Origin: a virus
Direction: 5' to 3' (one strand)
Length of the DNA stretch: 46,627 bases
Virus record (IMG/VR): IMGVR_UViG_3300013285_000024
Span: 1 to 46,627 of that record
The notes under the pieces were generated by a model. It searched no databases and had not been told where the DNA came from. It saw nothing but the letters and a program-made list of their open reading frames with translations. Each line of letters opens with the position of its first letter. Within the stretch, counting starts at the first letter, position 1. Shown here in pieces: positions 1 through 36,037 of this stretch. The translations under genes were made by a program, and so were the position numbers.

Positions 1-1178
1 ACACAAGTGGATCGCAGTCAGGGGTTCATTCTGTGTCCTCGCGGGGCATAAACATTGTTAGCCTAGCCAGCGCATCAGCCTGTCCTATAGTTCAGAACTT
101 TATTCTTGTCTCTGATACAAGCAGATATGTATTTGCTTTCGGGTGTAACGCTCTTGGATCGACTACCCAAGACCCCATGCAGATTCGCTGGTCTAACCAA
201 GAATCGGTAGTGGAATGGACTCCTGCCGCTACTAATACGGCGGGCGATCTCCGCTTGTCCCACGGATCCAAAATAGTAACCGCCATGCAAGCCCGCCAAG
301 AAATATTGGTATGGACTGACTCATCTTTATATTCCCTCCAGTATGTAGGCGCTCCCGTAGTTTGGGGTTCTCAATTGGTAGGCGATAACGTATCTATCGC
401 CGGAGAAAATGCCGTGGGCTACGCTAACGGCGTGGCATATTGGATGGGTGTGGATAAGTTCTATAAATATGATGGACGTACACAAACGCTGTCTTGTGAT
501 TTGCGTCAGCACGTATTTGAAAACATCAACAAAGACCAGTTTGACCAAGTTATGTCAGGAACTAACGAGGGCTTTAATGAAGTCTGGTGGTTCTACTGCT
601 CTTTAGGTTCTACTGTTGTTGACTCTTATGTTGTGTATAACTACCTTGAGCCAAATGGAAATGGCGGTGTTGGTGTTTGGTACTACGGCTCTATGGGCAG
701 AACGGCATGGCTTGACTCTGGTCTAAGCGATTACCCAATTGGCGCTACTTATGACAACAACCTTGTAAATCATGAAGTTGGGGTAGACGATAAGACTACA
801 GGAACAACCCTACCTATTGAGGCTTACATCACATCGGCTGAATTTGATTTAGATGATGGAGATAGGTTTGGATTTGTGTGGCGGGTACTTCCTGACATTA
901 CATTCCGTGGCTCTAGCGCAACTAGCCCGCAAGTCACCATGTATTTAAAGCCAATGCAAAACTCAGGCTCTGGATATAACAATCCTCAATCTGTGGGTGG
1001 TAACGCTTCCGCCACTATCACCCGCACAGCTGTTCTTCCGATTGAAGCATTTACTGGACAGATCTATACAAGGGTTAGAGGCCGTCAATTGGCTATGGAA
1101 GTTAGATCTACCGCAGAAGGTGTAACTTGGCAACTAGGCTCACCCCGTCTAGATATTAGGTTGGACGGCAGACGATGA
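1..1178 (+). CDS. tail/connector-type virion protein, 5' partial
   Basis: The reading frame is open through the left edge, so the true start lies outside the window; the GTG at 33 is only the first internal candidate. The visible 392 residues have the composition of a beta-rich structural protein, with many Gly, Ser, Thr, Tyr and Trp residues and few charged clusters. There is no signal peptide or membrane segment. The stretch SDTSRYVFAFGCN resembles proteins found beside the tail-tube genes of marine and freshwater podophages. It overlaps the next gene by ATGA, placing it in the late virion operon. The exact role (head-tail stopper, tail tube B-like or fibre attachment) cannot be fixed from sequence alone. 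Confidence 0.65.
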   Translation, partial: TSGSQSGVHSVSSRGINIVSLASASACPIVQNFILVSDTSRYVFAFGCNALGSTTQDPMQIRWSNQESVVEWTPAATNTAGDLRLSHGSKIVTAMQARQEILVWTDSSLYSLQYVGAPVVWGSQLVGDNVSIAGENAVGYANGVAYWMGVDKFYKYDGRTQTLSCDLRQHVFENINKDQFDQVMSGTNEGFNEVWWFYCSLGSTVVDSYVVYNYLEPNGNGGVGVWYYGSMGRTAWLDSGLSDYPIGATYDNNLVNHEVGVDDKTTGTTLPIEAYITSAEFDLDDGDRFGFVWRVLPDITFRGSSATSPQVTMYLKPMQNSGSGYNNPQSVGGNASATITRTAVLPIEAFTGQIYTRVRGRQLAMEVRSTAEGVTWQLGSPRLDIRLDGRR

Positions 1179-1525
1179 CATACATTGTTACCTCTGAATC
1201 CAAGATAAACAAGATCGCGGCACCAGCACTGCCTCTTGGCGGAGAGGAGTATTCCGCTCTATACCAAAACCAGTTTAATAATGTCTTGCGCCTGTACTTC
1301 AATCGTATACAAGGCATATTGGATCAACTTAGTACAGACAGCGGAATAATTCCGGCTTTAACCGTTTACACGGTGGTAACGTTACCAAGCGCCGCCACCT
1401 CTGGAGTAGGGGCTAGAGCATTTGTGTCTGATGCTTTAGCTCCGGTATTTGGCTCTACCGTAACTACAGGCGGGGCTGTAAAAACGCCGGTATATTCAGA
1501 CGGAACAAACTGGAAGGTCGGATGA
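1175..1525 (+). CDS. small tail-associated virion protein (116 aa)
   Basis: Starts on the ATGA overlap with the preceding gene. The N-terminal half (about 1-60) is helical, with QFNNVLRLYFNRIQ. The C-terminal half ends in a segment with SAATSGVGARAFVSDA followed by a VYSDGTNWKVG ending. This Gly/Ala-Asp-Gly-Thr-Asn-Trp type ending is common in short phage tail or fibre-associated proteins. No enzyme motif is seen. Its stop overlaps the start of the ACP-like gene by ATGA, so the two are probably translationally coupled. Confidence 0.65.
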   Translation: MTYIVTSESKINKIAAPALPLGGEEYSALYQNQFNNVLRLYFNRIQGILDQLSTDSGIIPALTVYTVVTLPSAATSGVGARAFVSDALAPVFGSTVTTGGAVKTPVYSDGTNWKVG

Positions 1526-1803
1526 ATTTCATAGAGCTGTTAAACAAAGTTGCCCGAGTTGCTCGCCCAGCTCACCATGAGTTTGTCCCTATTGAGCGCA
1601 TGGATGAGAGGTTTGAAGAGACTTGCTTTGACTCCCTAGACATGCTGATGATTGGCATGTTTATGGGCATGATCTATGACATACCTGATGAGATATCAAA
1701 AGAGTTCCAACCTGAGACTGTAGATGAGCTTTACGACTTCATCCAGTTGCATAAGACGCGCGATCCTGAGTCTATGGAATGGGCTCTGGAGCAGATTAAA
1801 TGA
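1522..1803 (+). CDS. acyl carrier protein-like protein
   Basis: 93 residues, acidic, with the hallmark ACP attachment motif DSLD at residues 37-40; Ser38 would carry 4'-phosphopantetheine. It is followed at the right spacing by the IPDEI signature (54-58) and a TVDELYDFI helix-4 signature (66-74). This matches the ACP order of an acidic residue-Phe stretch, DSL, helix II, IPDE and TV-x-dl-x-dyI. The length is slightly above the usual 75-80 residues because of extended ends. A GGAAGG-type ribosome site precedes the ATG. It overlaps both neighbours by ATGA, including the beta-ketoacyl synthase gene downstream, which strongly supports a functional ACP-KAS pair. The motif match is seen directly. 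Modification by a host phosphopantetheinyl transferase is inferred. Confidence 0.75.
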   Translation: MNFIELLNKVARVARPAHHEFVPIERMDERFEETCFDSLDMLMIGMFMGMIYDIPDEISKEFQPETVDELYDFIQLHKTRDPESMEWALEQIK

Positions 1804-2888
1804 TCCACCTAACGCACTACCGCACGGCCTACTCAACCACGGTTGAGCTGATGGAGGGGCCATTTCCCCAGAGGGTTCACTGGTTTCCAGAGACATACGC
1901 CCGCGTGAGTACTGGGATGTTTTATGCTCCTCACCGTATAGCTGAAAAGGTTCTAGACCCAGAGCTGGTCAAATCCCTACGCGAAAACCGCGTTGGCAAG
2001 ACTGCATTTATTCTTGCTTCAGGTAACGCCCACTTTGCCGGAATTAACCCACGCTCCAAGAAGCCTACAAGGTTATCCTATGAATACAAGTTCCTCCCCT
2101 TTTCCCTTACTCAGGTCTACGCTGGAAGAACGGCCCAAGCCTTGGGTGCTACGGATCATGTTGTTACCGATGCCACCGCCTGCGCGTCAAGCCTCAAAGC
2201 CCTTATGGATGTCCAAACCCTCATCAACCACTACGGGTTTAAAAGAGTAGTAGTTCTGTCGGTAGAAGACGCCGTATCAAACGCGGTACTAGAGTTCTTT
2301 GGTGAAGCCAGAGCGTCCCTGTCTCAAAAAGATGAGGAGCGCGGCATATTGCCATCAGCATTTGATGACACTAACTATGGGTTTAGGGTTGGCCAAGGCG
2401 CTGTGCTGGCGGTGTTTGAGGCTGACTCGGATAACCCACTGGCCACCCTTAAAGGGGCTTATACGGCTAGCGAAAATTACTCAAATGCTATCGGTCAGCG
2501 AGAAGACGGGCAGGGGTTTGTGCGTTCTATTGAGGGTGCTTTGCACGTTTCTGGCGCTGCTGCCGAACAGATTAAGGTGGTCAAAACCCATGGCACTGGA
2601 ACAAGTTCCAATAACGTGGCTGAAAAGGCCGCTTTAAATTACTGTTTAGGGGATTACATTGCAACGTCATACAAGGCTAAAATCGGACACACTATGGGCG
2701 CCAGTGGTTTGCTCGAGACATGTTTGCTAATTGATGACTTAAAACGTGGCGTTGTGCCAAAGATAGAAAACCGCACAACACATGACAACCAATTTCTTTC
2801 CTATGATGAATCTAACCCCGGTGGTTTGATTCTCAGCTTAGCCGCTGGCATGGGTAACGTGTATTCTGCAGCAATTCTGGAGATCTAG
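1800..2888 (+). CDS. beta-ketoacyl-ACP synthase-like enzyme
   Basis: 362 residues with all the catalytic hallmarks of a thiolase-fold condensing enzyme (FabB/FabF type). The nucleophile is Cys128 in TDATACASS, the first His is His264 in KTHGTGT, the second is His297 in KAKIGHTMGASG, and Lys292 lies five residues before it. A C-terminal GMGNVYSAAIL (350-360) takes the place of the usual GFGG-N-A strand. Bacterial FabF is about 410 residues, so this copy is compact, mainly at the N-terminus. The family performs Claisen condensation of malonyl-ACP with an acyl-enzyme. It overlaps the ACP-like gene by ATGA and is surrounded by virion genes, so it is probably expressed late. The substrate and product are unknown. 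It could also be a virion component or a chain-length-specific synthase. Confidence 0.85.
   Translation: MIHLTHYRTAYSTTVELMEGPFPQRVHWFPETYARVSTGMFYAPHRIAEKVLDPELVKSLRENRVGKTAFILASGNAHFAGINPRSKKPTRLSYEYKFLPFSLTQVYAGRTAQALGATDHVVTDATACASSLKALMDVQTLINHYGFKRVVVLSVEDAVSNAVLEFFGEARASLSQKDEERGILPSAFDDTNYGFRVGQGAVLAVFEADSDNPLATLKGAYTASENYSNAIGQREDGQGFVRSIEGALHVSGAAAEQIKVVKTHGTGTSSNNVAEKAALNYCLGDYIATSYKAKIGHTMGASGLLETCLLIDDLKRGVVPKIENRTTHDNQFLSYDESNPGGLILSLAAGMGNVYSAAILEI
2597..2610 (+). repeat. TGGAAC-AA-GTTCCA inverted repeat, coding copy 1
   Basis: Perfect 6-bp arms separated by AA, inside the ketoacyl synthase gene, where it encodes part of the HGTGTSSN region. One of six exact GGAAC-(AA/TT)-GTTCC copies in the window. 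In this position the coding constraint of a conserved motif may explain part of the match. Confidence 0.5.
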
Positions 2889-2889
2889 T

Positions 2890-3321
2890 ATGGCAATGGT
2901 AGACAGCAGGGAGAAGAAGCTCAATATCGCTGATATAGCTAATATCGCGTTAGAGAGTACTCGTTCCCAGCATTCTCCCAAAATAGCATTTCCAGCCATA
3001 CTAACCGAAATGTCCCAGCCCAATACAGACGTCAAACAAATGGGCAACACAGTCTTTATCCTTCATAAAGGGGATAACGGCCAAGGCTTCTTCAAAGCCC
3101 TAAACGCTGACAAGGCTCGTAACTTTGTAGAAAACAGCCGTCAATATGTGGTCTATGCCAAAAAGCTAGGCATGAACATGCTGGTCACGGAGTTTGAAGA
3201 TCCGGCAATAAGTACTTTATTCCACGCCATCTCTAAGAATCCTCCAATGCCGGGCATGGGGTTCAAAGAGTACAAACTGAAATCCGGCGGCAGGCGGATT
3301 GTTTTGAACTTAGGACAATGA
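2890..3321 (+). CDS. conserved phage protein, possibly GNAT-like
   Basis: 143 residues. A GGAG ribosome site sits 8 nt before the ATG, one base after the KAS stop codon. The central part (about 50-130) reads as alternating strands and helices and ends with GMGFKEYKLKSGGRRIVLNLG. This is reminiscent of the acetyltransferase-like internal proteins annotated in some podophages, but no clear acyl-CoA binding loop (Q/R-x-x-G-x-G/A) is visible. The position directly after ACP and KAS could suggest an acyl-transfer role. That is speculation. It may equally be a structural protein of the ejection module that follows. Confidence 0.5.
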   Translation: MAMVDSREKKLNIADIANIALESTRSQHSPKIAFPAILTEMSQPNTDVKQMGNTVFILHKGDNGQGFFKALNADKARNFVENSRQYVVYAKKLGMNMLVTEFEDPAISTLFHAISKNPPMPGMGFKEYKLKSGGRRIVLNLGQ

Positions 3322-8137: not shown

Positions 8138-11100
8138 ATGGCAGACATGAATGAGCTTTACAGCGCTCTGCAAAGAGCAGACGCAGCTGGAGATACTCAA
8201 TCTGCCAAGATTCTGGCTGACTACATACGCGGTCAAACTAAAGCTCCAGAACCCGGTCTTCCCTCTATTGCGCCAGTAGAGCCAGCTCCAGCGGCTGCAC
8301 CAGCAGCTCAAGCCGCTCCAACAGAACCAGCCGCTCCAATGGCTCCTAATGTGATGGATGCCCAAGCCTATAAAGCGGCATTGGAGAAGCGCAACCAAGA
8401 AAATCCAGAGCGTACAGTTTTAGGCACAGCCGTAGATGCTGGTATTACTCTTCTCAAAGGAGCTATTGGCTTGCCAGAAGCTTTTGTAGGCTTGGCAGAT
8501 ATTCCTAGTCGGGGCGCGTTGGGTAAGTTCCTTGAGCAAAATGGCTACAAACCCAAAGAAGCTAGTGCCATCTTAGATACCTACTTGTCTGAAGCACAGC
8601 AAGCGGCCAACCGTAAGGTAAGCGAGGCTAAAGGATTTGTTCCAACAGTCCAAGCTGCTTTACAAAACCCAAGCACTATTGCTACTTCTGTCGCCGAATC
8701 ACTACCTCAAATGATTGGTGGAGCTGGCATAGCTAGGGGTATATTGAAAGCTGCTCCTACAGTTGGCGGTGCAATTGCTGGTGGTCTTGGCGAAGGTATC
8801 TTAGGCGCAGGCTCTGCAGCCGAAGACATTCGCGCACAAAACGCAAACAAGTTACTAACTACAGAACAATCTTTGGCCGCGTTAGGAAGTGGTGCTGGCA
8901 CTGCATTGTTTGGTATAGCTGGCGGTCGTCTGGCTCAGAGGCTCGGCCTTGATGACGTACAGACCATGCTTGCAACTGGCTCTTCATTAGGCCCAGCCAA
9001 ATCAGTTCTTGACTTTAGTCGCCGCGCTATTGGCTCTGGAATATCTGAAGGTGTATTCCAAGAGATGCCACAGTCTGGTCAGGAAAAAATGTGGATGAAC
9101 TACGCCACAGACCGTCCTTTGATGGAGGGCGTACCAGAAGCCATGGGTATGGGAGCCGTCACTGGTTTCGGTATGGGCTTGCTGGGTGGCGGTGCTGGTG
9201 CGGCTGGCAAACAACCACAAGGCATTCAGCAACTGGTTCAACAGAATCAACAAATACTTGGTACTCCTCCGGCAGGCACTCAACCACCTGCCGCTTCACC
9301 TGCCGTTTCACCTGCGCCTCCATCTAACAGCCCAGTTGTTGGTACTACTACAGTAAATGTTGGCGGCAATATTCAAACAAAAGTTACGAGACAAGACGGA
9401 AGTGTAGATATTGATGGGGTACAGGTTGTACCTCCAACTGCGATTGCGCCTGCCGTTTCACCTGCCGAAGCCCCAAGCACTGACCTAGTCCAACAAACTA
9501 TTCCAGAAGCAGATACAAGCCAAGACTACGAAGCTATGTTGGCTGAACTTGAGCAGCAGATCGAGGGTAAACCCGCAGAAGCTGTACAAGAACAACCCCC
9601 TCAAGTGGAACAAGTTCCAACTGCAGGCCCTGCAGCTCCCGTTCAAGTTACCCAACCAGAAGCGCCAGCCGTTCCAATTACTCCTACAAGTGGCCCATCT
9701 GCGCCTGTAAAACAAGTCTTTGAAAAATCCAATCAATTAATGAACGACGAAGTTTCAAAGATTGATTCTGCAGAGAAGTTGGCGGTTGAATACTCAAACA
9801 TTAGACAAAGAAAAAATCCTCTTTCTGTAAATTTCCAAACAGATTCTGTGGCTATGCAAGGAGCTTTCCTAGAAAGATTTGCAGACAACAACCCAGAAAA
9901 AGCGGCTGAGTTTTCAGCGGAGTTAAAAGCTAATCCTGAAAAGTATTCTGACATATCTGGTATTTCTCCTGACTCAGTAAGATCAATAGGCTCACGGATT
10001 GATAAGCGCCTTGCGTTTAACAACGAGCAAGCCGCCAAAGTTCCAGAAACTACAACTGGCCCAGCCGCTCCTGTCAAAGTGGCGGAGCCTGCCGCACCAG
10101 AAGCACCGGCAGAAGTTACAGCCGGCCCAACTGAGCCAACTCAAGTGGCTGAACCTACTGCGCCAGTAGAAGTAACAGAACCTACCGCACCAGAGGCAGT
10201 AACTACTCCAGAAACGTCAACAGAAGAAAAGCCTGCAGAAGTTGCGGAGAAGCCTGCAGAGGCACAAGTAGAAGAGAAACCTACAGAAGGCCCAACCGCA
10301 CCTACGGGTGGCCCCGCTGCGCCCGTTAAAACAAAGAAAAAGCAAATTTGGTTTGTTGTTTATAAGACGGGAAATTTAGCTAGTAGCCGTGTAGATAATG
10401 TTGATTTAAACAGCGAGCAAGAAGCTAAAGAGTATTTAAACAAAACATTTACATCTCCTTGGCAATACAAGATTAGAGCCAAGACTATTGATGTTCCAGT
10501 AGAAGAGAAGCCTACAGGTGGCCCCGCTGCTCCAGCTGGCCCGAAAGAACCTAAGCCTCCAAAAGTAGAAATCTCTGAAGAAGAGAAAGCTAAAGCCGCA
10601 GAGGAAAAGGCTAAGGCCGAGGAAAAAAAAGCTAAGGCTGAAGAACAAAAGAAAAAAGTAGAAGAATTCAATAAGAATCCTATGAAGGTTGCCATGGAAG
10701 AAGGCAACGTGGATGCTGTTGCGTCTCTTCTGTATGGAAACGCCGTAGCCGAAGACCTAATGCCTGTCATCTTCCCTGATGAGATGTTGTTACGTATCCC
10801 TGTTTATTTAGGCAATGTATCGGATATTGAGGCGGCTTTAGGTAAGTACGGGTTCCGTATTACAGATCGGTCAGTCCAAGCAACTACAGATGACCCATCT
10901 TATACAGGCCCTGAGCTTGTAACTATTTCCGCGTTATACAAACCTGAGAAGGTAAGTATTCAAGGCGGTGGCGCTGAGTTTGTTAAAAACCGCAAAGGTT
11001 TAATTACCGCTCCTCCAGTACCTAAAGACGCCACAGATAGCCAGATCACCAAAATGCTAGATGCTGTGGCTATAGACAAGTTGCTTGACATCAATTCAAA

Positions 11101-14100
11101 CCCAGACAACTCGTTTGGAACAATGATGTACAAAGAGGGCGTTGTAAGCTATGTATTGCCTGCATCTGACTATATTCTTGCAGCTCTTAAAGATGCCAAA
11201 ATTGTTCGTATAACAGATAGAACGGGTAGCCGACAAGCTATCAAAATGGCTTTGGAAGCGGGCAAGCAAGATGAAGTTCAAATGCTTGTGCAAAATTATG
11301 TTGACGCACTTCAAAAACTACAGGAAGTCTTTGACTCTCACGCCCGTGTAGGAGATTTGGATCTTGCATTAAAAGAAAAATACGTTCAAGATGAAAATGC
11401 AAATTCGTCAACATTAAAGTACACGCTAGATGGTCTTGCTCTTCGTACCAAATTAAAAGTTAATAACTTAACTGGAATCCTTAACAAGATGTATGAGCTA
11501 TTTCCTAGCAATACTCAAGACTCAACTGATCAAACCAACCGAATCGTTAAAAAAGATGCTGAAGTACCACCAGAGTTAGGCAACATTATTCGTCGTGGTA
11601 TGCGTGATCACCGTCAAGGCCGTGACGTTGATACAAAAGACTTTGTAGATACGTTTGGAATGTTCCCCGGCGGTATTGACTTTGGTAACTGGGTTAACCA
11701 GAGCGAGCGCGCGGCTCACTTGAACGCTATCTATGACGCCATGTATGACTTGGCGGATGTTTCTGGTATCTCTCCAAAGATGCTTGGACTGGGCGAAAAG
11801 CTCAAAATGGCTATTGGAGCGCAGGGTAGAGGCGGTAGAACTGCAGCTCACTACTATCCCAAGTTAAACGAGATCAACCTTACCAAGACCAAAGGCGATG
11901 GATCGTTAGGACATGAATGGCAGCACGGCTTAGATTGGAATCTTCAACAAGAAGCCAACGGCAAAAAGTTGATGGACGGCACAGTTAACGTCCTTAAAAA
12001 TACGATAGACCCTGAGACAGTAGAAAACAATTTAAAAGCCATTTTGCGTGACACTGCTAACAGCACCGACAACCGCAACCTACCTCCTAAGAAGGCGTTC
12101 TTTGCTGCAATTACAAACCGCTCTTACTATGAGCAAGCGCCAATCTTTAGAAACTCATTTAAACAAACTCAGTACTTTAGAGATGCTCGCGCTTTAGACG
12201 AGAAAGAAGGTAAAACCCCTGCCTACTGGAGCTCCAACGTAGAACTGTTGTCTCGCGCATTTGAGTCTATGTTGTTTGATGCTTCCAAGGGTGGCTCGCC
12301 ATACCTTGTTGGCCCTACTGTTGCTGATGGATACATATCAAAGAAGAATGGTTACGGCGGAACAGCTTATCCAGCAGGCAAAGAACGCCCAGCTCTCAAT
12401 GAAATCTACAAGCAGATGCTTGAACAGATTGACCCAGAGACTCTGGCAGTCAAGACTTACAAGATGGAAACCAAGATTGTCTTTATTGAAGACTTGGGCT
12501 ATGCCGTCTTGGATCAGTACAACCTAGACTCAGGCACTTATGGTGGCTTGCAATGGTTTAAAGACCAAAAAGAAGCTGAAGAAACCAAAAAACTTCGCGA
12601 TGGTGAAGAACGTGTTTTGACTCCTGAAGCCATGCAGTTGAGCAAGGTCAATCAGCAAATCATTGACATGGCAAAGCGCGTTGATGTCATCATGGAAGAG
12701 ATGGGTCTATTTAAATGGCCTGAAATTAAAAACGGCTCAATGGCTGAGTCCATGTTCTATCACATGCGTCAAGGCTGGTGGCCAAAGAACAACCGCGAGC
12801 TGGCTGAGTACGGCATCAAAGCCTATTTGCAAAAGCCTGAGTTGCTTGGCTTTAACCCAGCCAAAGATCAGCGCGAGATAGAAAAGTACAAGATTGCAGA
12901 CTTTGAGGGTGACCGCGTCAAGCTCAAGCAGACTCAAGAAGACTTTGAGGCTGCAGCTGTACGCTTTGTCAGCCAAGTCATTACTGATATGAGAACTGAG
13001 GGATCGGATACAAAGGCTATCTACGATCACATTGTTGGCCTGTATCAGACCCAGCCTACATTGGATGTTCAGTCTGTCTTGAGTAAGACAAACAACGCCT
13101 ACTCTACGCCTCTGCCTATCGGTTACTTGGCCGGTATGCTGGCACAAGTTAAGTCCACCACTACAGTCCTAGACCCTACGGGCGGTAACGGAATGCTGGT
13201 GGTTGCGGCTAACCCACAAAACGTCACAACGATAGAGCTAGACCCACACCGTGCTAAAAACATGGAGCTAATGCAAATTGGTAACGTAATTGAAGGTGAT
13301 GCTCTTAAGAAAATAAATGACTTGAGAGATCAAGAGGTTGACGTAGTTTTAACTAACCCTCCGTTCGGTGCTTTATCAACTCCGGAACAAGTTCCATCTT
13401 GGACTGGCCAGAACTACAAGATTGGCACTCTAGATCAATTGATTGCGGCTAAGTCTTTACGGGCTATGGCTAACAATGGTCGTGCTGTATTGATACTTGG
13501 AGCACATCCTAAAGCTGGAACAGTAACCTCCACAGACCGTGTATTCTTAAACTGGTTATATGGTAACTACAACGTAGTAGACCATTATGAAATTGGCGGA
13601 AACTTATATCGTAAACAGGGTGCGTCTTGGCCGTTGCGCGTCCTAGTTATTGCCGGTAGAAACCAAACGGAAAACGCTTATCCAAGTGACTTCAACATCA
13701 GTCGGATAACTACATTTGATGAACTTTGGAGTAGATATGTTCAAACCAGTGATCGTAGCCAAGAAGTCGTGGTGGGTACCGGAAAAAAACAGCCAGTTAC
13801 TGGCGGTGCAAATCGACCGGCCGGAGGAGTATCAACAGGCGATACGCTGGAAGATGGAGAGCCTAGCGGAGGAGTGGGGGCTGGAGAGGTCGCTGGCGTC
13901 GGCGAACAATTACCTACAACAGGACGGGGCGCTGGAACTACCGCAGCCGGCGGACGAGGAACAGCTGGTGCAGCTGGTGCTGGAGAACAGCAGCCGGATA
14001 TCGGAAAAAATAAACGAGGGGGATCCAATACTGGCGAAGCCGGCAGCTCAGAAAGAGGCGCTGATAGCGGTAGAGGATCAGAAAATGAACTGGGAGGACT

Positions 14101-17100
14101 TTCTGACGTAGACCTAGACTCTATCTTTGATGAACTAGGTAAACCAGAAAAAGTTAAAGGCGGCCCACGCGCACCTCGAAGCGCTCCAAAAGAAGCTGGT
14201 GCTCCAAAAGCGCCAAGAACATCGACAACCAAAGGCCCAACAGTTATTCCAAAAGATTTGGAAGGCTTAGGTCTTGAGGCTTTACTTGATGAGTTGGATG
14301 TTGCCCTAAACGGAAAAGCTCCCGAGGTAACTAAAAAAACTACACCCGAAGACAGCCAAGCGCGCTTAGACAAGCAAGCTGAAGAGGCTATGGGTCGTAT
14401 TGCCCAGAACACCAAGAACACTAGCGACGACCCCAACAGCGGGCTGTACTCTAGAAAAGGTGATCAAGATTACGCCAACGTCCAACCAATCATTCAGAAG
14501 GTATGGAATGCTGTCGGAGAAAAGGTTAGCGATGCAAGCCAGCGTATCAAGCAAGTCTATGCTTTGCTGGTTACTAAATTTGGTGACGCCATCAAGGCTC
14601 ATCTACGCACGTTTGTGGACAGCCTGCGCGCAGTCGTGCAACGCCGCCCCAAGAACCAAACCCCAGTCCAAGCCGAACCTATTGATACTGAATCCCGCGT
14701 TGTCTACCTTGGTAAGTCACGCTTCTCTAGCGACGGCATCTACTTGCCACGCGCTCAGTCACAACACGCTTACTCAGCACTAGAAAACCTTGAAGCTCAA
14801 GTAGGAAGCATTGATGAGTTTGTAGCTAATGAGCTTGGGTATCCATCAGTTGAAAAGATGGCTAAAGGATTAGCTGGTTACCAAGTAGACGGACTAGCTT
14901 TGGCTATTCAAGCTAACAAGCTTGGTAAGGGCTTCATCATTGGGGACGATACCGGCGTGGGTAAAGGCCGTGCTGCAGCTGCCATGATTGTTTGGGCTAA
15001 AAAGAACGGGAAGATACCAATTTTTGTAACGCTCAGTGATTCCTTGTACACCGCGATGTATGAAGACTTGAGCAACATTGACCATGAAGATATCAGTATC
15101 GGCATGACCAACAATGAATCAATGATTCAAAAGAACATTGGTAACGGCCAGACTAAGGTTGTGTTTGAGAACAAGGGCAAAGCTGGCCCAGAACTTATGT
15201 CCTACATCACCAAGAACGGTGAGCTGCCTAAGGGCATGGATGTATTGTTTACAGCCTACTCTCAACTCAATGGCGGAGCGGGCTCTCCAGCTAGACAAGG
15301 TGCTATAGCTTCTTTAGTAGCCGCTGGCAAAGCCGTTCTTATCATGGACGAAGCCCATAACGCGGCTGGTATTCCAACTAACCCAGACTCCATGGGTCAA
15401 AACGCATTCTTCATGTCCCTGTTAACAGGCATTAACTTGTTGGGCAAAGAGAAGGACGCTCCTGAAGATTGGCAACCACCTCCTGCCGTGTATTTGTCTG
15501 CGACGTTTGCAAAACGCCCAGACAACATGCCTTTGTACATCCATACTAACTTGCGTTATGCAGCTAATACTCCAGAAGAGTTGACAGCCTTGTTCGGTAA
15601 AGGTGTGAAGACGGACGTATTGCAACAAGTTTCATCTGAAATGTTGGTTGAGTCTGGCTCTATGTTGCGCCGCGAGAGATCGTATGAAGGCGTGACGATG
15701 GATTTTGTTACAGACGAGGCTAACGCTCCCCGTGATATCCGTGAAGTAGATAAAGTTACAACCATCCTAAGAGCACTTGTCAATGCTGACCGCTCCCTCA
15801 AAGAATGGATGAAGTCGGCTGCAATTCAAGAAGAACTGATCAAAAAGTTTGGCCCACCCGGCGCAATGCTTGGAAAAATTGGCCCTACTGCATTTACTGA
15901 AGCCAAAGCCAACATGTTTACCTCTGTAGTTCACAACTACATTGGAACTCTACTGCTGTCTACTAAAACTCAAACCGCCGTAGACATGGTAGTGGACAAG
16001 ATGAACAACAATGAAAAGGTTGTTGTTGGTCTGCAGAATACAAACGGCAGTGCGCTAGATGACTTTGTTACAAAAAATGGCATCAAAGTTGGCGATGATA
16101 TTCCTAACTTTGGTTGGCAAACTTTGCTCCAGCGCGCAATTGACTCGACTAGAAAAGTTACATTGAAGTCGGCTACTGGTAATAAGAAAGACAACATCAA
16201 GATTGAAGTTCCATATTCAATGATGCCTTTATCAGTCAGGGCTGGATACGACAACTTAGCCAACATGCTCAAGGACTTCCAGTCCGATCTGCCTGTGGCT
16301 CCTATTGACTACATGCGTACTCAGCTTGAGAACAAGTATGTTTGGACGGTTGATGGAAAGACTCAAGTTGGAGATGAGCCTCCAGCTGGTGTTAAGGCTA
16401 GACACTTAGTGGTCAGGGAAATCACTGGACGCAATACTGCGGTAGATTACCGTGGCGATACTCCTAAGTACATGGCTCTAAACAACCCAGAGCGTGTTGC
16501 GATGATCTCCTCGTTCCAAAACGGTGAAGACTCACAGAACGGCCCAATCGATGTATTGATTATTAACTCTGCTGGTGCGACTGGTATTTCGTTACACGCA
16601 TCTACTGAGGCGTTTGACCAGCGTCCGCGCCACATGGTTGTGCTTCAGCCTCACGGAGACATCAGTGTCTTTATCCAGCTGCTGGGTCGTATTCACCGCA
16701 CTGGTCAGGTCGAGTGGCCATCGTTCACCATGCTGGCTACTGGCATCCCAGCCGAGAGACGTATCTTGGCTATGCTTCGTAAGAAGTTATCCAGCTTGAA
16801 GTCCAACACTTCGGGCGGTTCTAGTAGCACCAAGGTAAACGGCGTTGACTTCATCAATAGATATGGTGACGTCGCTACTGCTGAATACTTAAACGAACAT
16901 GCTGACATTCGAGAGTTCTTAGGCCAGCCTTTGTTTAACGATCCCGCAGAACAAGCTGGAACAGACTTGGCTCACAAAGCCTCTGGCACAGCTGGTCTAT
17001 TGTCCTCCTCAGATCAACAGGAGTTCTTTGACTCTATTGAGGCTAGTTACTTGGCTGAGATTGAGCTACGCAACTCTACAGGCACCAACGCCCTAGAGCG

Positions 17101-20100
17101 CCGCGTCCTTCCGCTCAATGCCGAGATGATCAAAGAGAACCTTATCGAGGAAGGTTTAGACAGTAATAACCCATTCTTGACTGATGTGGTGATGGCTCAG
17201 TTGAACGTGGATGTTATTGGCTCGATACCTACCCAGCAAAACATTGAGGACGATATTGCCCAAGCTTTAAACGGCCGTACTGCCCAACAAGTTGTAGAAG
17301 AGATTGACACAGAACTTAACACAATCTTTGTCGAGGTAAGAAACCAAATCATCTTAAAGCAAGGAGCTTTAGCTGAAGCAATTGCCGCCCCTGAAGCTAC
17401 CGAAAAAGACGTTGAAGTATTGACCAAGCAAAAAGAAGCTTTGGACATGCAGTTTGCTACTCTTGGTGAGCGTAGAGAAAGAACCTTGAGCGAGCTAAGA
17501 AACCAGTATGCAATTGGCACTGGCTTTGAATCGTTCATGCTGAATAATGTTCCAGCAAGTGCGGTTGTTATTGGTATCAAGGTAGACAAAACTAGGATTG
17601 GAAAGTCCAAGACTGGTAACCCATACTCACCATCTAACTTCCAAGTCATTTTTAAGCGCAACATTCCAGAGGGAAGAGTTGCTCCTACGCTGGCTACCTT
17701 GGAAGGCCCGAGCATTGACCAAAGCTCCTCATGGCGCAATCCTCCATTAGATCAGTGGTTTGCTCTCAAGTCAGTAACTGGTGGTCGCACTACTCGTTAC
17801 ATCGCACTTGGAAACATCCTGAGAGCGGCGCAGTTGTTTGACAAAGACGGTGGTGAGATTGCTAAGTTTACCCTGATGAATCAGACAGAGCCAGTCTCTG
17901 GTGTGATCATGCCCGCTAAGTACCAGCCTGTGGCTATTAGCGCACAGCCTGTCAGGTTGCGTAATCCTAATGCTGCCGTGCAATACACATTGGCGGCTTG
18001 GCAAAAGATTTTGCAAAACAAGTACGAAGGCACTCAAGTCGAAGAGTACAAAAACTTGGCAGACGTGTTGCAGCCACTTTTGTTGCCGAACCTGCCTGAT
18101 TTTAAAACGTTTACCGATCTTCAAAAAAGTACCTATACCAACGTCGTTATCCGTGGCACACAGAACCTGTGGACGTTAAGTTTGGATAGCTACAGGCCTC
18201 TTGGCTTTAGGTTATCTATATCTGGTGATGCGCCTAAAAAGTTTGTTACGTCTATCAAAGACATCTCTATGGCGAAGAAGGGTGGTCGCTATGAAATGTC
18301 CGGTGGAGCGTATATAGCAAACTTTGACAAAATAATTTCACTCATCAAACAGCTGCATAAGAGTTACCCAGCGACTGTGGAAGCTGACTTTGGTCAACTT
18401 GCCCGCGAGGTAATGAAAGTTGAGTTTGACGACAGCGAATCTAAGAAGGGCATGTTCTCTCGCGCGGTAGCCGAGGGCGGCCAAAGCGTTGAAGATGTTC
18501 AGTCTCAAATCGTACCGATCAAAGGTATCACTGTTAACGTCGTTCAATCTTCTGATGACCTGCCAGACCAGTGCGCGCCGTCTGATGTTGAAGGTGTGTG
18601 GTACTCGGGTAATACTGTTTACCTTGTAGCTGACAACTTACCTAATGCCCAGCGTGTTCAAGAAGTGCTGGCGCATGAAGCTATCGGTCACGCCGCGTTA
18701 GAAGCAATGCTTGGCAAGCAGTTGATGGGCTCTTTGGTTAAGAACGTCCTTACGCTAGAAGAGACTTCTAAGCTTGTTAAAGAGATTGCAGCTCAAGTAG
18801 ACCGCACACAACCCGGCCTGTCTGATGAGCGTCGCGCTAAAGAGATCGTAGCCGTCATGGCAGAGCGCGGTTTGTATGGTGGTTTAGTACAGCGTGTGAT
18901 TCAAGCTGTGCGTAGATGGCTCAGAGATGCTGGCTTCACAATTAAATTTGCCGACAGCGACATCTTGGCTTTGCTCAAGAACGCAGAGAAGTTTGCAGCT
19001 GCAGCAGACTCTGCACCTAAGTTGTTTGGAACTCCAGAGCCTTTTTTCTCTAGAAACTACCAAGGCGGCCCAGCTCCAGTAGCTCAGTGGTCATCGCCAG
19101 ACTCAACAACCATGACAAACATTGAGTATCAGCTGGCTGATAAGTTTGTTGACCTCAAGCACGTTATTCGCGAGATAGAGAAGGGCGCTGGAACAATTCA
19201 GGAGAACTTCGACGCCTATACAAAAGAGACGTTGATGCATGGTAGGGCGTCAGAGGCCATACAGGATTTCCTGAACAAAGAACTTCTGCCTGTCTTGAAA
19301 GATATGCGCGAGAAGAAGGTTACGCTGGCCGAGCTGGAGGAGTACCTCCATAACCGTCACGCTGAAGAGTACAACATCCAGATTGCCAAGATCAATCTAA
19401 CCATGCCGGATGGTGGATCGGGAATCTTTACCGATGATGCAAACATTTATCTAAACAATCTAACCCAAGACCAGAAGGACAAGTTTGAGGCGCTTGCTAA
19501 AGAAGTTGACGCTATCGTAAGAAAAACTCAGGGGGTTGTGGTTGAGGGTGGTCTAGAAACTCAAGAGACTGTTGACGTTTGGAATCAAACATACCCCAAC
19601 TATGTTCCTTTGAAGCGCGCAGACTTGGACTATGTCAACACCGGTAGCGGAGTAGCCAAAGGCATTCAAGTTAAAGGCCCGTTCAGTAAGAGAGCCATGG
19701 GTTCGCTCAAAGACGTTGTTGATATCTTCTCTAACATTGCTGTCCAGCGCGAGAAGGCTATCGTCAATGCAGAAGCAGCCAAAGTTGGCCGTGCTCTGTA
19801 TGGTCTAGTCATCAGCAATCCAAACCCCGGCTTTTGGATGGCCGTCAACCCTGACGCTATCAAGAACAAAAAGAAACTTCAAGATGAGTTGATCAAGCTT
19901 GGTCTAAACCCTACGGACGCACAGAACTTATTTCAAGAACCTAAGAGTCCAAGCATTGATCCTAAGACTGGGTTTGTTCGATACAAAGTCAACCCAACAC
20001 TTCGCGACAGTAAGAACGTAGTAGCTATCAAAGTCAACGGCAAAGACCGTTACGTTTTTTTTAATGGTAATGATCCACGCGCTTTGCGTATGGCTGAAAC

Positions 20101-21781
20101 ATTAAAGAACTTAGAGTCTGAGCAACTTGGAACTATTTTGGGAATTGTTGGTAGTGCAACTCGCTGGATGGCGGCGGTTAACACCCAGTACAACCCAGTA
20201 TTCGGCGCATGGAACTTCTTACGCGACGTTGGTTCTGCCACTATTAACCTGACAAACACGCCTCTTGCTGGTAAACAAGCACAGGTGCTCCTAAGCACTA
20301 TGCCCGCCATGGCAGGCATATACAAAGAGCTGCGCGCTACCCGTAAGGGCAAAACGGTTAGTTCACGCTGGGTGGATATCTACGACAGATACAGACATGC
20401 TGGTGGTAAAACTGGTTTTAAAGAACAGTTCAGCAAAGGTCAAAACAAATTAACCATTGTTGAAAGAGAACTTAAAAAACTTGATCGTGGTAACGCCAGA
20501 CAGATTGCCGATGGCATATTTGGTTGGTTGTCGGACTACAACGACACCATGGAAAACGCTGTTCGTCTAGCTGCTTTTGATATTGCAACTAAGTCTGTTG
20601 CAGATGGCGGTCTAGGTTTAAGCGAGCAAGAAGGCGCAGCTATTGCCAAAGACCTGACTGTTAACTTTAACCGAAAGGGTGCAGCCAGTAAGTGGGTTCA
20701 GGTTCTGTATGCTTTCTTTAACGCCTCCGTACAGGGCGGATTGAAAGTCGGCCGCACTCTCGCTGGCCCAGCTGGTCGCAAGATTATGATCGGTGGAGTG
20801 GTGGTTGGTATCATGCAAGCGTTGGCTATGGCCATGGCTGGCTTTGATGATGATGATCCTCCTGAGTTTGTCAAGGCAAAGAACTTTGTGTTCCCAACGG
20901 GCGACGGCACCTACAAAGTGTTCCCAATGCCACTGGGTTACAGCATATTTCCGGGAATTGGCCGCCTGATCACCGAATACATACTGGCTCAAAACGGCGT
21001 CATCAGCAGTAAGAAGGGTGCTTCTGATGTAGTGGTCGATATCATGTCGATGACTGTAGAAGCGTTTAATCCGCTTGGTTCTGGAAGCTTGTGGCAGATG
21101 GCTATGCCTACTGTTGCAGATCCTTTTGCCGCGATTGCTACAAACAAAGATGCGTTTGGACGTCCGATCTACAAAGAGGATCGTGCTACCAATCCAACTC
21201 CGGGCTACATGCGTTCACGCGAAAGTGCAAGTGCTGTCGGTCAGTTCATATCTGAGTTCTTAAACTATGTATCGTCTCCAGCTGGAACTAAATACACAAA
21301 AGGCCCTAACTTCTTAGACCTTACCGCTGATGAGATTGACTACCTTATTGGACAGGCAACGGGCGGAGTTGGTCGTGAGGTAATGAAAGCGGTTCAATAT
21401 GCTGGCGCTGTTGTTGAGGGCGAGACAGCTGAAGTGCCAACGTACAAAGTGCCAATCGTCGGTAAGTTCTTGGGAGAGACTGGATCTCCTGCGGCAATCT
21501 CAGCTAACTTCTATGACAACGTAACCCGTCTGGCAAAGCATGAGAATGAAATTAAGAGCCTGATCAAGAACAAGGAGCCTACTGCTGACTACAAGTCTGA
21601 GCATCCAGAGTGGAGATACTACAACAGGGCTAACTATTTAGAGAACCAGATCTCTCAAATCAACAAACAAATAAAAGTTGCTCAAGAGAAAGATCGGCCT
21701 GATGAAACAATACAGAAGATGAAGGATCGTAAGACTGCAATGATGAAGAAATTCAACGAGCAAGTTAAAGCGGCCCAATAA
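8138..21781 (+). CDS. giant polyvalent protein: methyltransferase-helicase-LPD fusion
   Basis: 4547 residues. Order: Ala/Gly-rich hydrophobic region (about 95-360); Pro/Ala/Glu linkers with repeated GPAAP units (490-810) that flank small globular beads; Lys/Glu coiled coil (815-850); LPD1-like region with HEWQH at 1259-1263; N6-adenine methyltransferase with DPTGGNG from 1679 and NPPF at 1740-1743; Gly/Ser-rich linker (about 1880-2000); Strawberry-notch-like SF2 helicase with GDDTGVGKGR at 2269-2278, DEAH at 2404-2407, SATFAKRP and GRIHRTGQ at 2850-2857; a second zincin-like motif HEAIGH at 3513-3518; LPD38-like C-terminal region with a hydrophobic segment near 4217-4235. Proteins of this class (for example DarB of P1) travel in virions and protect injected DNA. 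Here that role is inferred from domain content and from position as the last late gene. Confidence 0.85.
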   Translation: MADMNELYSALQRADAAGDTQSAKILADYIRGQTKAPEPGLPSIAPVEPAPAAAPAAQAAPTEPAAPMAPNVMDAQAYKAALEKRNQENPERTVLGTAVDAGITLLKGAIGLPEAFVGLADIPSRGALGKFLEQNGYKPKEASAILDTYLSEAQQAANRKVSEAKGFVPTVQAALQNPSTIATSVAESLPQMIGGAGIARGILKAAPTVGGAIAGGLGEGILGAGSAAEDIRAQNANKLLTTEQSLAALGSGAGTALFGIAGGRLAQRLGLDDVQTMLATGSSLGPAKSVLDFSRRAIGSGISEGVFQEMPQSGQEKMWMNYATDRPLMEGVPEAMGMGAVTGFGMGLLGGGAGAAGKQPQGIQQLVQQNQQILGTPPAGTQPPAASPAVSPAPPSNSPVVGTTTVNVGGNIQTKVTRQDGSVDIDGVQVVPPTAIAPAVSPAEAPSTDLVQQTIPEADTSQDYEAMLAELEQQIEGKPAEAVQEQPPQVEQVPTAGPAAPVQVTQPEAPAVPITPTSGPSAPVKQVFEKSNQLMNDEVSKIDSAEKLAVEYSNIRQRKNPLSVNFQTDSVAMQGAFLERFADNNPEKAAEFSAELKANPEKYSDISGISPDSVRSIGSRIDKRLAFNNEQAAKVPETTTGPAAPVKVAEPAAPEAPAEVTAGPTEPTQVAEPTAPVEVTEPTAPEAVTTPETSTEEKPAEVAEKPAEAQVEEKPTEGPTAPTGGPAAPVKTKKKQIWFVVYKTGNLASSRVDNVDLNSEQEAKEYLNKTFTSPWQYKIRAKTIDVPVEEKPTGGPAAPAGPKEPKPPKVEISEEEKAKAAEEKAKAEEKKAKAEEQKKKVEEFNKNPMKVAMEEGNVDAVASLLYGNAVAEDLMPVIFPDEMLLRIPVYLGNVSDIEAALGKYGFRITDRSVQATTDDPSYTGPELVTISALYKPEKVSIQGGGAEFVKNRKGLITAPPVPKDATDSQITKMLDAVAIDKLLDINSNPDNSFGTMMYKEGVVSYVLPASDYILAALKDAKIVRITDRTGSRQAIKMALEAGKQDEVQMLVQNYVDALQKLQEVFDSHARVGDLDLALKEKYVQDENANSSTLKYTLDGLALRTKLKVNNLTGILNKMYELFPSNTQDSTDQTNRIVKKDAEVPPELGNIIRRGMRDHRQGRDVDTKDFVDTFGMFPGGIDFGNWVNQSERAAHLNAIYDAMYDLADVSGISPKMLGLGEKLKMAIGAQGRGGRTAAHYYPKLNEINLTKTKGDGSLGHEWQHGLDWNLQQEANGKKLMDGTVNVLKNTIDPETVENNLKAILRDTANSTDNRNLPPKKAFFAAITNRSYYEQAPIFRNSFKQTQYFRDARALDEKEGKTPAYWSSNVELLSRAFESMLFDASKGGSPYLVGPTVADGYISKKNGYGGTAYPAGKERPALNEIYKQMLEQIDPETLAVKTYKMETKIVFIEDLGYAVLDQYNLDSGTYGGLQWFKDQKEAEETKKLRDGEERVLTPEAMQLSKVNQQIIDMAKRVDVIMEEMGLFKWPEIKNGSMAESMFYHMRQGWWPKNNRELAEYGIKAYLQKPELLGFNPAKDQREIEKYKIADFEGDRVKLKQTQEDFEAAAVRFVSQVITDMRTEGSDTKAIYDHIVGLYQTQPTLDVQSVLSKTNNAYSTPLPIGYLAGMLAQVKSTTTVLDPTGGNGMLVVAANPQNVTTIELDPHRAKNMELMQIGNVIEGDALKKINDLRDQEVDVVLTNPPFGALSTPEQVPSWTGQNYKIGTLDQLIAAKSLRAMANNGRAVLILGAHPKAGTVTSTDRVFLNWLYGNYNVVDHYEIGGNLYRKQGASWPLRVLVIAGRNQTENAYPSDFNISRITTFDELWSRYVQTSDRSQEVVVGTGKKQPVTGGANRPAGGVSTGDTLEDGEPSGGVGAGEVAGVGEQLPTTGRGAGTTAAGGRGTAGAAGAGEQQPDIGKNKRGGSNTGEAGSSERGADSGRGSENELGGLSDVDLDSIFDELGKPEKVKGGPRAPRSAPKEAGAPKAPRTSTTKGPTVIPKDLEGLGLEALLDELDVALNGKAPEVTKKTTPEDSQARLDKQAEEAMGRIAQNTKNTSDDPNSGLYSRKGDQDYANVQPIIQKVWNAVGEKVSDASQRIKQVYALLVTKFGDAIKAHLRTFVDSLRAVVQRRPKNQTPVQAEPIDTESRVVYLGKSRFSSDGIYLPRAQSQHAYSALENLEAQVGSIDEFVANELGYPSVEKMAKGLAGYQVDGLALAIQANKLGKGFIIGDDTGVGKGRAAAAMIVWAKKNGKIPIFVTLSDSLYTAMYEDLSNIDHEDISIGMTNNESMIQKNIGNGQTKVVFENKGKAGPELMSYITKNGELPKGMDVLFTAYSQLNGGAGSPARQGAIASLVAAGKAVLIMDEAHNAAGIPTNPDSMGQNAFFMSLLTGINLLGKEKDAPEDWQPPPAVYLSATFAKRPDNMPLYIHTNLRYAANTPEELTALFGKGVKTDVLQQVSSEMLVESGSMLRRERSYEGVTMDFVTDEANAPRDIREVDKVTTILRALVNADRSLKEWMKSAAIQEELIKKFGPPGAMLGKIGPTAFTEAKANMFTSVVHNYIGTLLLSTKTQTAVDMVVDKMNNNEKVVVGLQNTNGSALDDFVTKNGIKVGDDIPNFGWQTLLQRAIDSTRKVTLKSATGNKKDNIKIEVPYSMMPLSVRAGYDNLANMLKDFQSDLPVAPIDYMRTQLENKYVWTVDGKTQVGDEPPAGVKARHLVVREITGRNTAVDYRGDTPKYMALNNPERVAMISSFQNGEDSQNGPIDVLIINSAGATGISLHASTEAFDQRPRHMVVLQPHGDISVFIQLLGRIHRTGQVEWPSFTMLATGIPAERRILAMLRKKLSSLKSNTSGGSSSTKVNGVDFINRYGDVATAEYLNEHADIREFLGQPLFNDPAEQAGTDLAHKASGTAGLLSSSDQQEFFDSIEASYLAEIELRNSTGTNALERRVLPLNAEMIKENLIEEGLDSNNPFLTDVVMAQLNVDVIGSIPTQQNIEDDIAQALNGRTAQQVVEEIDTELNTIFVEVRNQIILKQGALAEAIAAPEATEKDVEVLTKQKEALDMQFATLGERRERTLSELRNQYAIGTGFESFMLNNVPASAVVIGIKVDKTRIGKSKTGNPYSPSNFQVIFKRNIPEGRVAPTLATLEGPSIDQSSSWRNPPLDQWFALKSVTGGRTTRYIALGNILRAAQLFDKDGGEIAKFTLMNQTEPVSGVIMPAKYQPVAISAQPVRLRNPNAAVQYTLAAWQKILQNKYEGTQVEEYKNLADVLQPLLLPNLPDFKTFTDLQKSTYTNVVIRGTQNLWTLSLDSYRPLGFRLSISGDAPKKFVTSIKDISMAKKGGRYEMSGGAYIANFDKIISLIKQLHKSYPATVEADFGQLAREVMKVEFDDSESKKGMFSRAVAEGGQSVEDVQSQIVPIKGITVNVVQSSDDLPDQCAPSDVEGVWYSGNTVYLVADNLPNAQRVQEVLAHEAIGHAALEAMLGKQLMGSLVKNVLTLEETSKLVKEIAAQVDRTQPGLSDERRAKEIVAVMAERGLYGGLVQRVIQAVRRWLRDAGFTIKFADSDILALLKNAEKFAAAADSAPKLFGTPEPFFSRNYQGGPAPVAQWSSPDSTTMTNIEYQLADKFVDLKHVIREIEKGAGTIQENFDAYTKETLMHGRASEAIQDFLNKELLPVLKDMREKKVTLAELEEYLHNRHAEEYNIQIAKINLTMPDGGSGIFTDDANIYLNNLTQDQKDKFEALAKEVDAIVRKTQGVVVEGGLETQETVDVWNQTYPNYVPLKRADLDYVNTGSGVAKGIQVKGPFSKRAMGSLKDVVDIFSNIAVQREKAIVNAEAAKVGRALYGLVISNPNPGFWMAVNPDAIKNKKKLQDELIKLGLNPTDAQNLFQEPKSPSIDPKTGFVRYKVNPTLRDSKNVVAIKVNGKDRYVFFNGNDPRALRMAETLKNLESEQLGTILGIVGSATRWMAAVNTQYNPVFGAWNFLRDVGSATINLTNTPLAGKQAQVLLSTMPAMAGIYKELRATRKGKTVSSRWVDIYDRYRHAGGKTGFKEQFSKGQNKLTIVERELKKLDRGNARQIADGIFGWLSDYNDTMENAVRLAAFDIATKSVADGGLGLSEQEGAAIAKDLTVNFNRKGAASKWVQVLYAFFNASVQGGLKVGRTLAGPAGRKIMIGGVVVGIMQALAMAMAGFDDDDPPEFVKAKNFVFPTGDGTYKVFPMPLGYSIFPGIGRLITEYILAQNGVISSKKGASDVVVDIMSMTVEAFNPLGSGSLWQMAMPTVADPFAAIATNKDAFGRPIYKEDRATNPTPGYMRSRESASAVGQFISEFLNYVSSPAGTKYTKGPNFLDLTADEIDYLIGQATGGVGREVMKAVQYAGAVVEGETAEVPTYKVPIVGKFLGETGSPAAISANFYDNVTRLAKHENEIKSLIKNKEPTADYKSEHPEWRYYNRANYLENQISQINKQIKVAQEKDRPDETIQKMKDRKTAMMKKFNEQVKAAQ
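9606..9619 (+). repeat. TGGAAC-AA-GTTCCA inverted repeat, coding copy 2
   Basis: Exact copy within the linker region of the giant protein gene, read as GAA CAA GTT CCA (EQVP). The same codon string occurs again at 13384, so codon choice for EQVP accounts for part of the repetition. Confidence 0.45.
13384..13395 (+). repeat. GGAAC-AA-GTTCC inverted repeat, coding copy 3
   Basis: Exact 12-nt core in the methyltransferase domain of the giant gene, just after the NPPF motif, again encoding EQVP. Confidence 0.45.
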
Positions 21782-35392: not shown

Positions 35393-36037
35393 TTAATGAA
35401 GTTTGTAAGAGACAACTGCAGAGCTCCAGCAAGCGCGACAGTCTCGGCATTCACCGCCTTGAGCTGGCGCCTTGCATTCCTTGCCCAAGGGTTTATTAGT
35501 ATGGACATTGGAGACAGTCACATTCTTGATGCCTTTGAGCGATTTTGGAACAAGTGCCAATTTATCGGGGAACATAGCCGAAAGCCGAACGATTAAGTTC
35601 TTCGGCAACGAGCCGTGCTTCGCGATGTAGCTTTTAACTACAGCGTATTCCCGCGTCGGTAACCAGTGCTTGGTGCGTGGTGTCAGCTGGGCAACGCAAG
35701 CGATTTTCTCCAAGTGCCAAAGGCCTTGAAGATCACCAGCGTCATGCCACCGAAAGTAGCTGTCAGCACCAATCAGGCTAACGATTGCATCCACCCAGCT
35801 TGGATCGCTAAGTGAGTCGAGCCGAGCAAACTGAGCGGGTTTCACGCGGTTAGCGTAAAGCGCGTACAGGCCTTTGTCAGCGTAACAGCTGGAGCACACT
35901 GAGCCAGCTTGTTGAGCCATTTTGTAGCCAGTCTTACAGGCCTCGGTTGGGAGGCTGTAAGACTTGCAAGGCATCTTGCTCGTTTGAGTGAGCGAGCCAC
36001 AGACGGCCTGAGCCGTCTTGATCGAGATCACTCTCAT
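35393..36037 (-). CDS. gp88-like conserved phage protein
   Basis: 214 residues. SKMPCKSYSLPTEACKTGYK followed by SVCSSCYADKGLY, RWHDAGDLQG and HWLPTREYAVV reproduces the pattern of the phage gp88-like family, in which a Cys-rich core suggests metal or cluster binding. C-terminal Cys residues (GGECRDCRACW) extend the cluster. No experimentally defined activity is known to me. Starts on an ATGA overlap. Confidence 0.7.
   Translation of the reverse strand: MRVISIKTAQAVCGSLTQTSKMPCKSYSLPTEACKTGYKMAQQAGSVCSSCYADKGLYALYANRVKPAQFARLDSLSDPSWVDAIVSLIGADSYFRWHDAGDLQGLWHLEKIACVAQLTPRTKHWLPTREYAVVKSYIAKHGSLPKNLIVRLSAMFPDKLALVPKSLKGIKNVTVSNVHTNKPLGKECKAPAQGGECRDCRACWSSAVVSYKLH

Follow-up and report, generated by a model that had tools for sequence, protein, structure and literature searches.

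Related systems described so far

Acyl carrier proteins (ACPs) encoded by phages have been reported for Alteromonas phage R22Y (PMC11705849), Erythrobacter phage R6L (PMC5463345) and Vibrio phage R16F (PMC10152775). In the accessible parts of these reports, no condensing-enzyme partner of the ACP is mentioned. Genes for fabF, fabG and fabZ have been assigned to viruses or prophages (PMC8224337, PMC10653327, PMC12783922). One of these cases is a prophage set with the bacterial gene order fabG-acpP-fabF (PMC8224337). Overall, a viral takeover of host lipid synthesis has so far been suggested mostly by single genes.

Here, we analyze a locus from an aquatic phage (IMG/VR virus record IMGVR_UViG_3300013285_000024, 46,627 bases, hereafter referred to as the window). 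It codes for a predicted ACP that is directly followed by a predicted beta-ketoacyl synthase (KS). Unlike the prophage set, it is devoid of fabG, and its KS belongs to a separate, phage-only clade. The carrier and its matched condensing enzyme occur together in every assessable locus and in hundreds of viral contigs, and they are far from cellular enzymes in sequence.

A preliminary description of this DNA had considered the arrangement as a candidate for a new system. This still applies to the paired family as such, for which no description was found in a full-text literature search (most subscription journals being outside its reach). It does not apply to the components, as phage ACPs and viral fabF are in print, and relatives are named FabB or 3-oxoacyl-ACP synthase in UniProt and GenBank. 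Two database entries are members of the same family and carry automatic gene names only. One is MW202545 (Caudoviricetes sp., Manatee Spring), with a KS that is 67% identical and an ACP that is labelled hypothetical protein. The other is UniProt A0A6J7X0R1 ("FabB"), with a KS that is 69% identical.

Gene layout of the window

The window is assigned to a tailed phage because a terminase, a portal protein, a primase, a helicase and a Holliday resolvase were found elsewhere in it. The combination of tail and ejection genes suggests a podovirus. The features of the locus are listed in Table 1. The two ORFs with their ATGA overlap, and the position of the pair downstream of a tail gene and upstream of ejection genes, had already been recognized in the preliminary description, and both points are correct for this window. 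The ACP start is, in turn, overlapped (ATGA) by the stop codon of the preceding small gene. Further downstream, the 416-aa protein matches PHROG 4287 (DNA ejection protein, E 3.6e-7).

Table 1. Features of the ACP-KS locus (positions refer to the window).
Feature	Position	Strand	Basis
Virion structural (tail) protein, PHROG 3287	33..1178	+	PHROG match, E 3.2e-44; upstream of the pair
Small gene, C-terminal parts swapped in relatives	1175..1525	+	ORF call, comparison of relatives
Acyl carrier protein (ACP), 93 aa	1522..1803	+	Family profile, predicted fold, invariant Ser38
Ser38 codon (tcc), presumed 4'-phosphopantetheine attachment site	1633..1635	+	Sequence, invariance
ATGA stop-start overlap of ACP and KS	1800..1803	+	Sequence; same overlap in 144/168 loci
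Beta-ketoacyl synthase (KS), FabF-like, compact, 362 aa	1800..2888	+	Pfam, NCBIfam, PDB, AlphaFold2, Foldseek
Cys128 codon, nucleophile (E. coli FabF C163)	2181..2183	+	Invariant in 81/81, residue map
His264 codon (FabF H303)	2589..2591	+	Invariant in 81/81, residue map
Lys292 codon (FabF K335)	2673..2675	+	Invariant in 81/81, residue map
His297 codon (FabF H340)	2688..2690	+	Invariant in 81/81, residue map
143-aa associated gene (cl3), no family match	2890..3321	+	Co-occurrence with KS loci
Two virion/ejection-type proteins, 632 and 416 aa	3323..6481	+	Cluster conserved downstream

Relatives of the small gene were found in loci L155, L160, L168, L201 and L222. They keep the N-terminal part, and their C-terminal part is replaced by long unrelated modules, as in a modular receptor-binding or tail-tip protein. 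Elsewhere in the window, a single ORF (8138-21781, + strand, 29% of the window) codes for a 4547-aa polyvalent protein. Its domains are LPD38 (7.7e-38), LPD1 and a helicase of the Strawberry-notch type, and there is a weak match to a type I methyltransferase. A Gene product 88 family protein (PF17338, 7e-21) is encoded at 35393-36037 on the - strand.

The acyl carrier protein

The 93-aa protein is assigned as an ACP, based on its family profile, its predicted fold and the invariant Ser38. The ACP signatures that had been noticed previously are present (D37-S38-L39-D40, I54-P-D-E57 and TVDELYDFI), and Asp37 and Ser38 are invariant across 81 viral homologues. An HMM search had been proposed as a check for both proteins. 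It was positive for the KS (see below) and gave a mixed result for the carrier: taken by itself, the protein of the window matches no Pfam family, a kind of result that the preliminary description had named as evidence against its reading, but PF00550 is matched by 7 of 41 relatives (best 1.8e-4). When the family profile was compared to the PDB, the best matches were ACPs (top 1.6e-4). The AlphaFold2 model (pLDDT 89) shows the helical shape of a carrier, and Ser38 is at the start of helix II (residues 38-52). Carrier proteins are also the top matches in the fold search, with probabilities up to 0.98 and with E-values of 0.1 and above, as small helical folds give such weak values. On sequence, membership in the ACP family is weaker than that of the second protein in the KS family.

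The recognition helix is atypical. It is mostly hydrophobic and has a mean of 1.8 acidic residues among 14, compared to 5 in E. coli AcpP. Host FAS enzymes may therefore handle the phage ACP poorly. The odd helix suggests that the carrier has a private partner.

The condensing enzyme

The 362-aa protein is assigned as a FabF-type ketosynthase by profile and fold, and, with its catalytic residues being intact, condensing activity is predicted. Both Pfam domains were detected (PF02801, 7.5e-17; PF00109, 2e-10), and both are above the curated cut-off (61.9 and 41.1 bits versus 20.8). The protein also matches PHROG 35856 (unknown function, 3e-38). The family profile retrieves FabF from the PDB at 6e-28. 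The AlphaFold2 model has a pLDDT of 89 and a pTM of 0.91.

The triad Cys128-His264-His297 and Lys292 had been pointed out before, and they align with the catalytic residues of FabF. These four residues are invariant in the 81 viral homologues and in 29 diverse sequences. When aligned to E. coli FabF (literature numbering, with the first Met omitted), the phage KS retains C163, H303, T305, T307, K335, H340 and E349. Fold, catalytic residues and the equivalents of Thr305/Thr307 and Glu349 are thus common to the phage KS and FabF/FabB (beta-ketoacyl-ACP synthase II/I).

In other respects, the phage KS differs from these enzymes. It lacks about 40 N-terminal residues, and the GFGG gate is replaced by GMGN. 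FabF F400 corresponds to Met351, H268 to Asn229 and T270 to Ile231. In FabF, H268 and T270 are linked to malonyl binding, while F400 is the substrate gate. Because positions for malonyl binding and gating are changed, the activity of the phage KS may be slow or different, or it may consist of acyl transfer instead of decarboxylative condensation. The match to the NCBIfam model for fabF (TIGR03150) has an E-value of 3.7e-29 but only 101.6 bits, far below the equivalog cut-off of 493.75. The phage KS is outside FabF proper, considering this score, the GFGG motif, Phe400, His268 and Thr270 that are not kept, and its position in a separate clade.

Pairing, spread and selection

The pairing of the two genes is obligate. 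The ACP gene is directly upstream of the KS gene in 168 of 168 assessable loci (those not cut by a contig end), to which the Manatee Spring phage MW202545 adds one more (169 in total). Some of the 168 loci are overlapping stretches of one contig, so that they do not represent 168 independent genomes. The first 80 loci are from distinct contigs, and the ACP gene precedes the KS gene in all 80.

KS relatives occur in at least 563 viral contigs. Weak KS matches in the phage collection (below 30% identity, on contigs that lack annotation and bear the names of Listeria, Enterococcus and other hosts) were excluded, as they look like bacterial sequence.

Purifying selection on both genes is strong, with dN/dS values of 0.02-0.12 for the KS and 0.005-0.05 for the ACP. 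With its phage context and dN/dS well under 1, the pair belongs to the phage auxiliary metabolic genes. As only two small proteins are involved, the question of which acyl product a phage needs can be tested directly, and the pair can serve as a metagenome marker for such phages.

Proposed role and dependence on host enzymes

Partner enzymes were searched for in related viral records, with positive controls. A phosphopantetheinyl transferase and a FabG-type reductase were not found in 31 records, and a FabD-type transferase, FabA/Z, a PlsC acyltransferase and a 4HBT thioesterase were not found in 13 of these 31; the records are fragments or of unrated completeness and may be partial. With these six enzyme families being negative in records that may be partial, the idea that further FAS genes are located elsewhere in the phage records was rejected. 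Host enzymes would thus have to serve the module.

Phages that carry the pair probably make or redirect acyl chains in the bacteria that they infect, with a putative product and a putative benefit for the phage. This had been suggested in the preliminary description and is still the best reading. More specifically, we give slightly better than an even chance to the proposal that ACP and KS constitute one module that, during infection, extends the fatty acid synthesis of the host by a branch under phage control, either for elongation or for diversion. The changed malonyl-binding and gating positions of the KS and the mostly hydrophobic recognition helix of the ACP speak against this proposal. 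In this scheme, a host phosphopantetheinyl transferase would convert the ACP to its holo form at Ser38, and malonyl and acyl groups would be attached by host enzymes. With Cys128 and His264/His297, the phage KS would then condense these groups, and a beta-ketoacyl chain would form on the carrier of the phage. Host reductases and dehydratases might finish this chain, or it might stay as it is.

Variable genomic context

In most loci, the gene order is that of the window: tail protein, small gene, ACP, KS, 143-aa gene and ejection protein. However, phages with a tail protein that is 62-77% identical to that of the window are mostly devoid of the pair: the KS is found in none of the 53 that have enough downstream sequence. 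Locus L198 represents an empty site, where the small gene is directly followed by a gene related to the 143-aa one. On the tree of tail proteins, presence of the pair changes 9 times by parsimony, and at least four of these changes are forced by strong branches. Some of the changes could be due to exchange of the tail gene.

In eight loci (L061, L066-L068, L070, L071, L078 and L299), the pair is away from virion genes and is found in a DNA-metabolism module. There, it is followed by a small gene with no assigned function, then by DUF3310 and, at a greater distance, by genes for DUF2800 exonucleases. It is preceded by an SNF2 helicase wherever the contig extends that far. On the KS tree, five representatives of these loci group in a single clade (SH-aLRT 93).

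The linkage to the virion operon that had been described previously thus holds for the window and for most loci, but not for this clade, and the idea of a pair that is firmly tied to the virion operon was rejected. The clean absence in relatives of the tail gene, together with the placement in the DNA-metabolism module, identifies the pair as a mobile two-gene unit that has moved between modules. Its use therefore cannot depend on virion neighbours. A location that is devoid of such neighbours suits a metabolic role.

These data bear on an alternative that was raised in the preliminary description, namely that the pair acylates a virion protein. In its wider form, the pair would acylate a virion or ejection protein, or build a lipid part of the particle, and would be aided by the 143-aa neighbour. 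The window and most other loci, where the pair is flanked by tail and ejection genes, are consistent with this, as is the distribution of the 143-aa gene, which is found downstream of the KS in 145 of 153 KS-positive loci but in only 10 of 53 loci without KS. However, the 143-aa gene is absent downstream of the pair in the whole DNA-metabolism clade, close relatives of the virion operon manage without the pair, and no phage acyltransferase was detected among the families tested. As the pair has moved between modules, its position does not require virion acylation. We consider this alternative unlikely.

The 143-aa protein itself has neither a family match nor an acyltransferase match in family scans. 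By eye, it had first been guessed to be an acyltransferase like T7 gp13 (GNAT-like). This assignment was rejected, as hhalign profile-profile comparison gave a probability below 1% and the family scans were negative. The conserved protein family has GNT, NAD and NS motifs and is strongly associated with the pair, and distant homologues occur in phages that lack it. In locus L076, an extra gene (9100-9756) for a 218-aa protein without a Pfam or PHROG match is located between the KS and the 143-aa gene. In two loci without KS (L216, 5500-6093; L222, 7485-8087), a distant homologue of the 143-aa protein is followed by a conserved protein of some 200 aa, which resembles a cupin on visual inspection only. 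When a relation to defence systems was checked with PADLOC, there was no match for the ACP, the KS or the 143-aa protein.

Other products and other uses

The module might make a small diffusible or regulatory compound (a beta-keto acid, a pyrone or a signal) rather than a membrane fatty acid. In a Foldseek search, the solved fold nearest to the KS was that of the actinorhodin ketosynthase/chain length factor (1tqy, E 6.8e-23, TM 0.81 by query length, 20% identity); there is no gene for a chain-length-factor partner beside the phage KS. The altered substrate gate of the KS fits such a role, and so does the odd recognition helix of the ACP, with its hint at a private carrier. Yet, many FabF structures are among the Foldseek matches and score almost equally. 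Neither a tailoring enzyme nor a thioesterase was found among the families tested. This reading is, in our opinion, improbable.

Alternatively, the pair might act as a brake on lipid synthesis of the host. Phosphopantetheine or malonyl groups would be sequestered by the carrier, or malonyl-ACP would be decarboxylated by the KS. A KS with catalytic residues kept and gating residues changed is compatible with this, and a carrier that is encoded in a late operon might be produced in large amounts. However, conservation of the KS extends well past the active site (mean column identity 69%), which, together with the fixed pairing, suggests more than a sink. We regard a brake as distinctly unlikely and retain the elongation or diversion branch as the preferred reading.

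Origin of the phage KS

The phage KS form one clade, which is split from the cellular KS tested (SH-aLRT 100). The tree has long branches, so that the depth of the split cannot be read as a date. A genome scan for bacterial copies returned one phage-type KS, from a contig of a Balneolaceae MAG, and one distant KS. In 28 genomes around this MAG, cellular KS score at most 91 bits, compared to 569 bits for the phage-type copy. Neither the clade split nor the scores of cellular KS give any sign of a recent gain of the KS from the host.

An origin of the genes from contaminating bacteria or from a wrongly binned FAS operon of the host, which might come to mind because the prophage set mentioned above keeps the bacterial gene order, is refuted by the fully supported clade split, by the low scores of cellular KS and by the phage genes that flank the loci in contigs across many data sets.

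It is tempting to speculate that the pair is an old, phage-only minimal acyl synthase with a private carrier, separate from all cellular KS tested. It would be a sealed two-gene cassette that, in different phages, changes places between virion operon and DNA-metabolism module, and it would give rise to a product which the host does not make. We put this reading forward as tentative and rather doubtful.

The contig of the Balneolaceae MAG (L110, JAGYJQ010000016.1) has phage neighbours around its phage-type KS and is either a prophage or a mis-binned phage.
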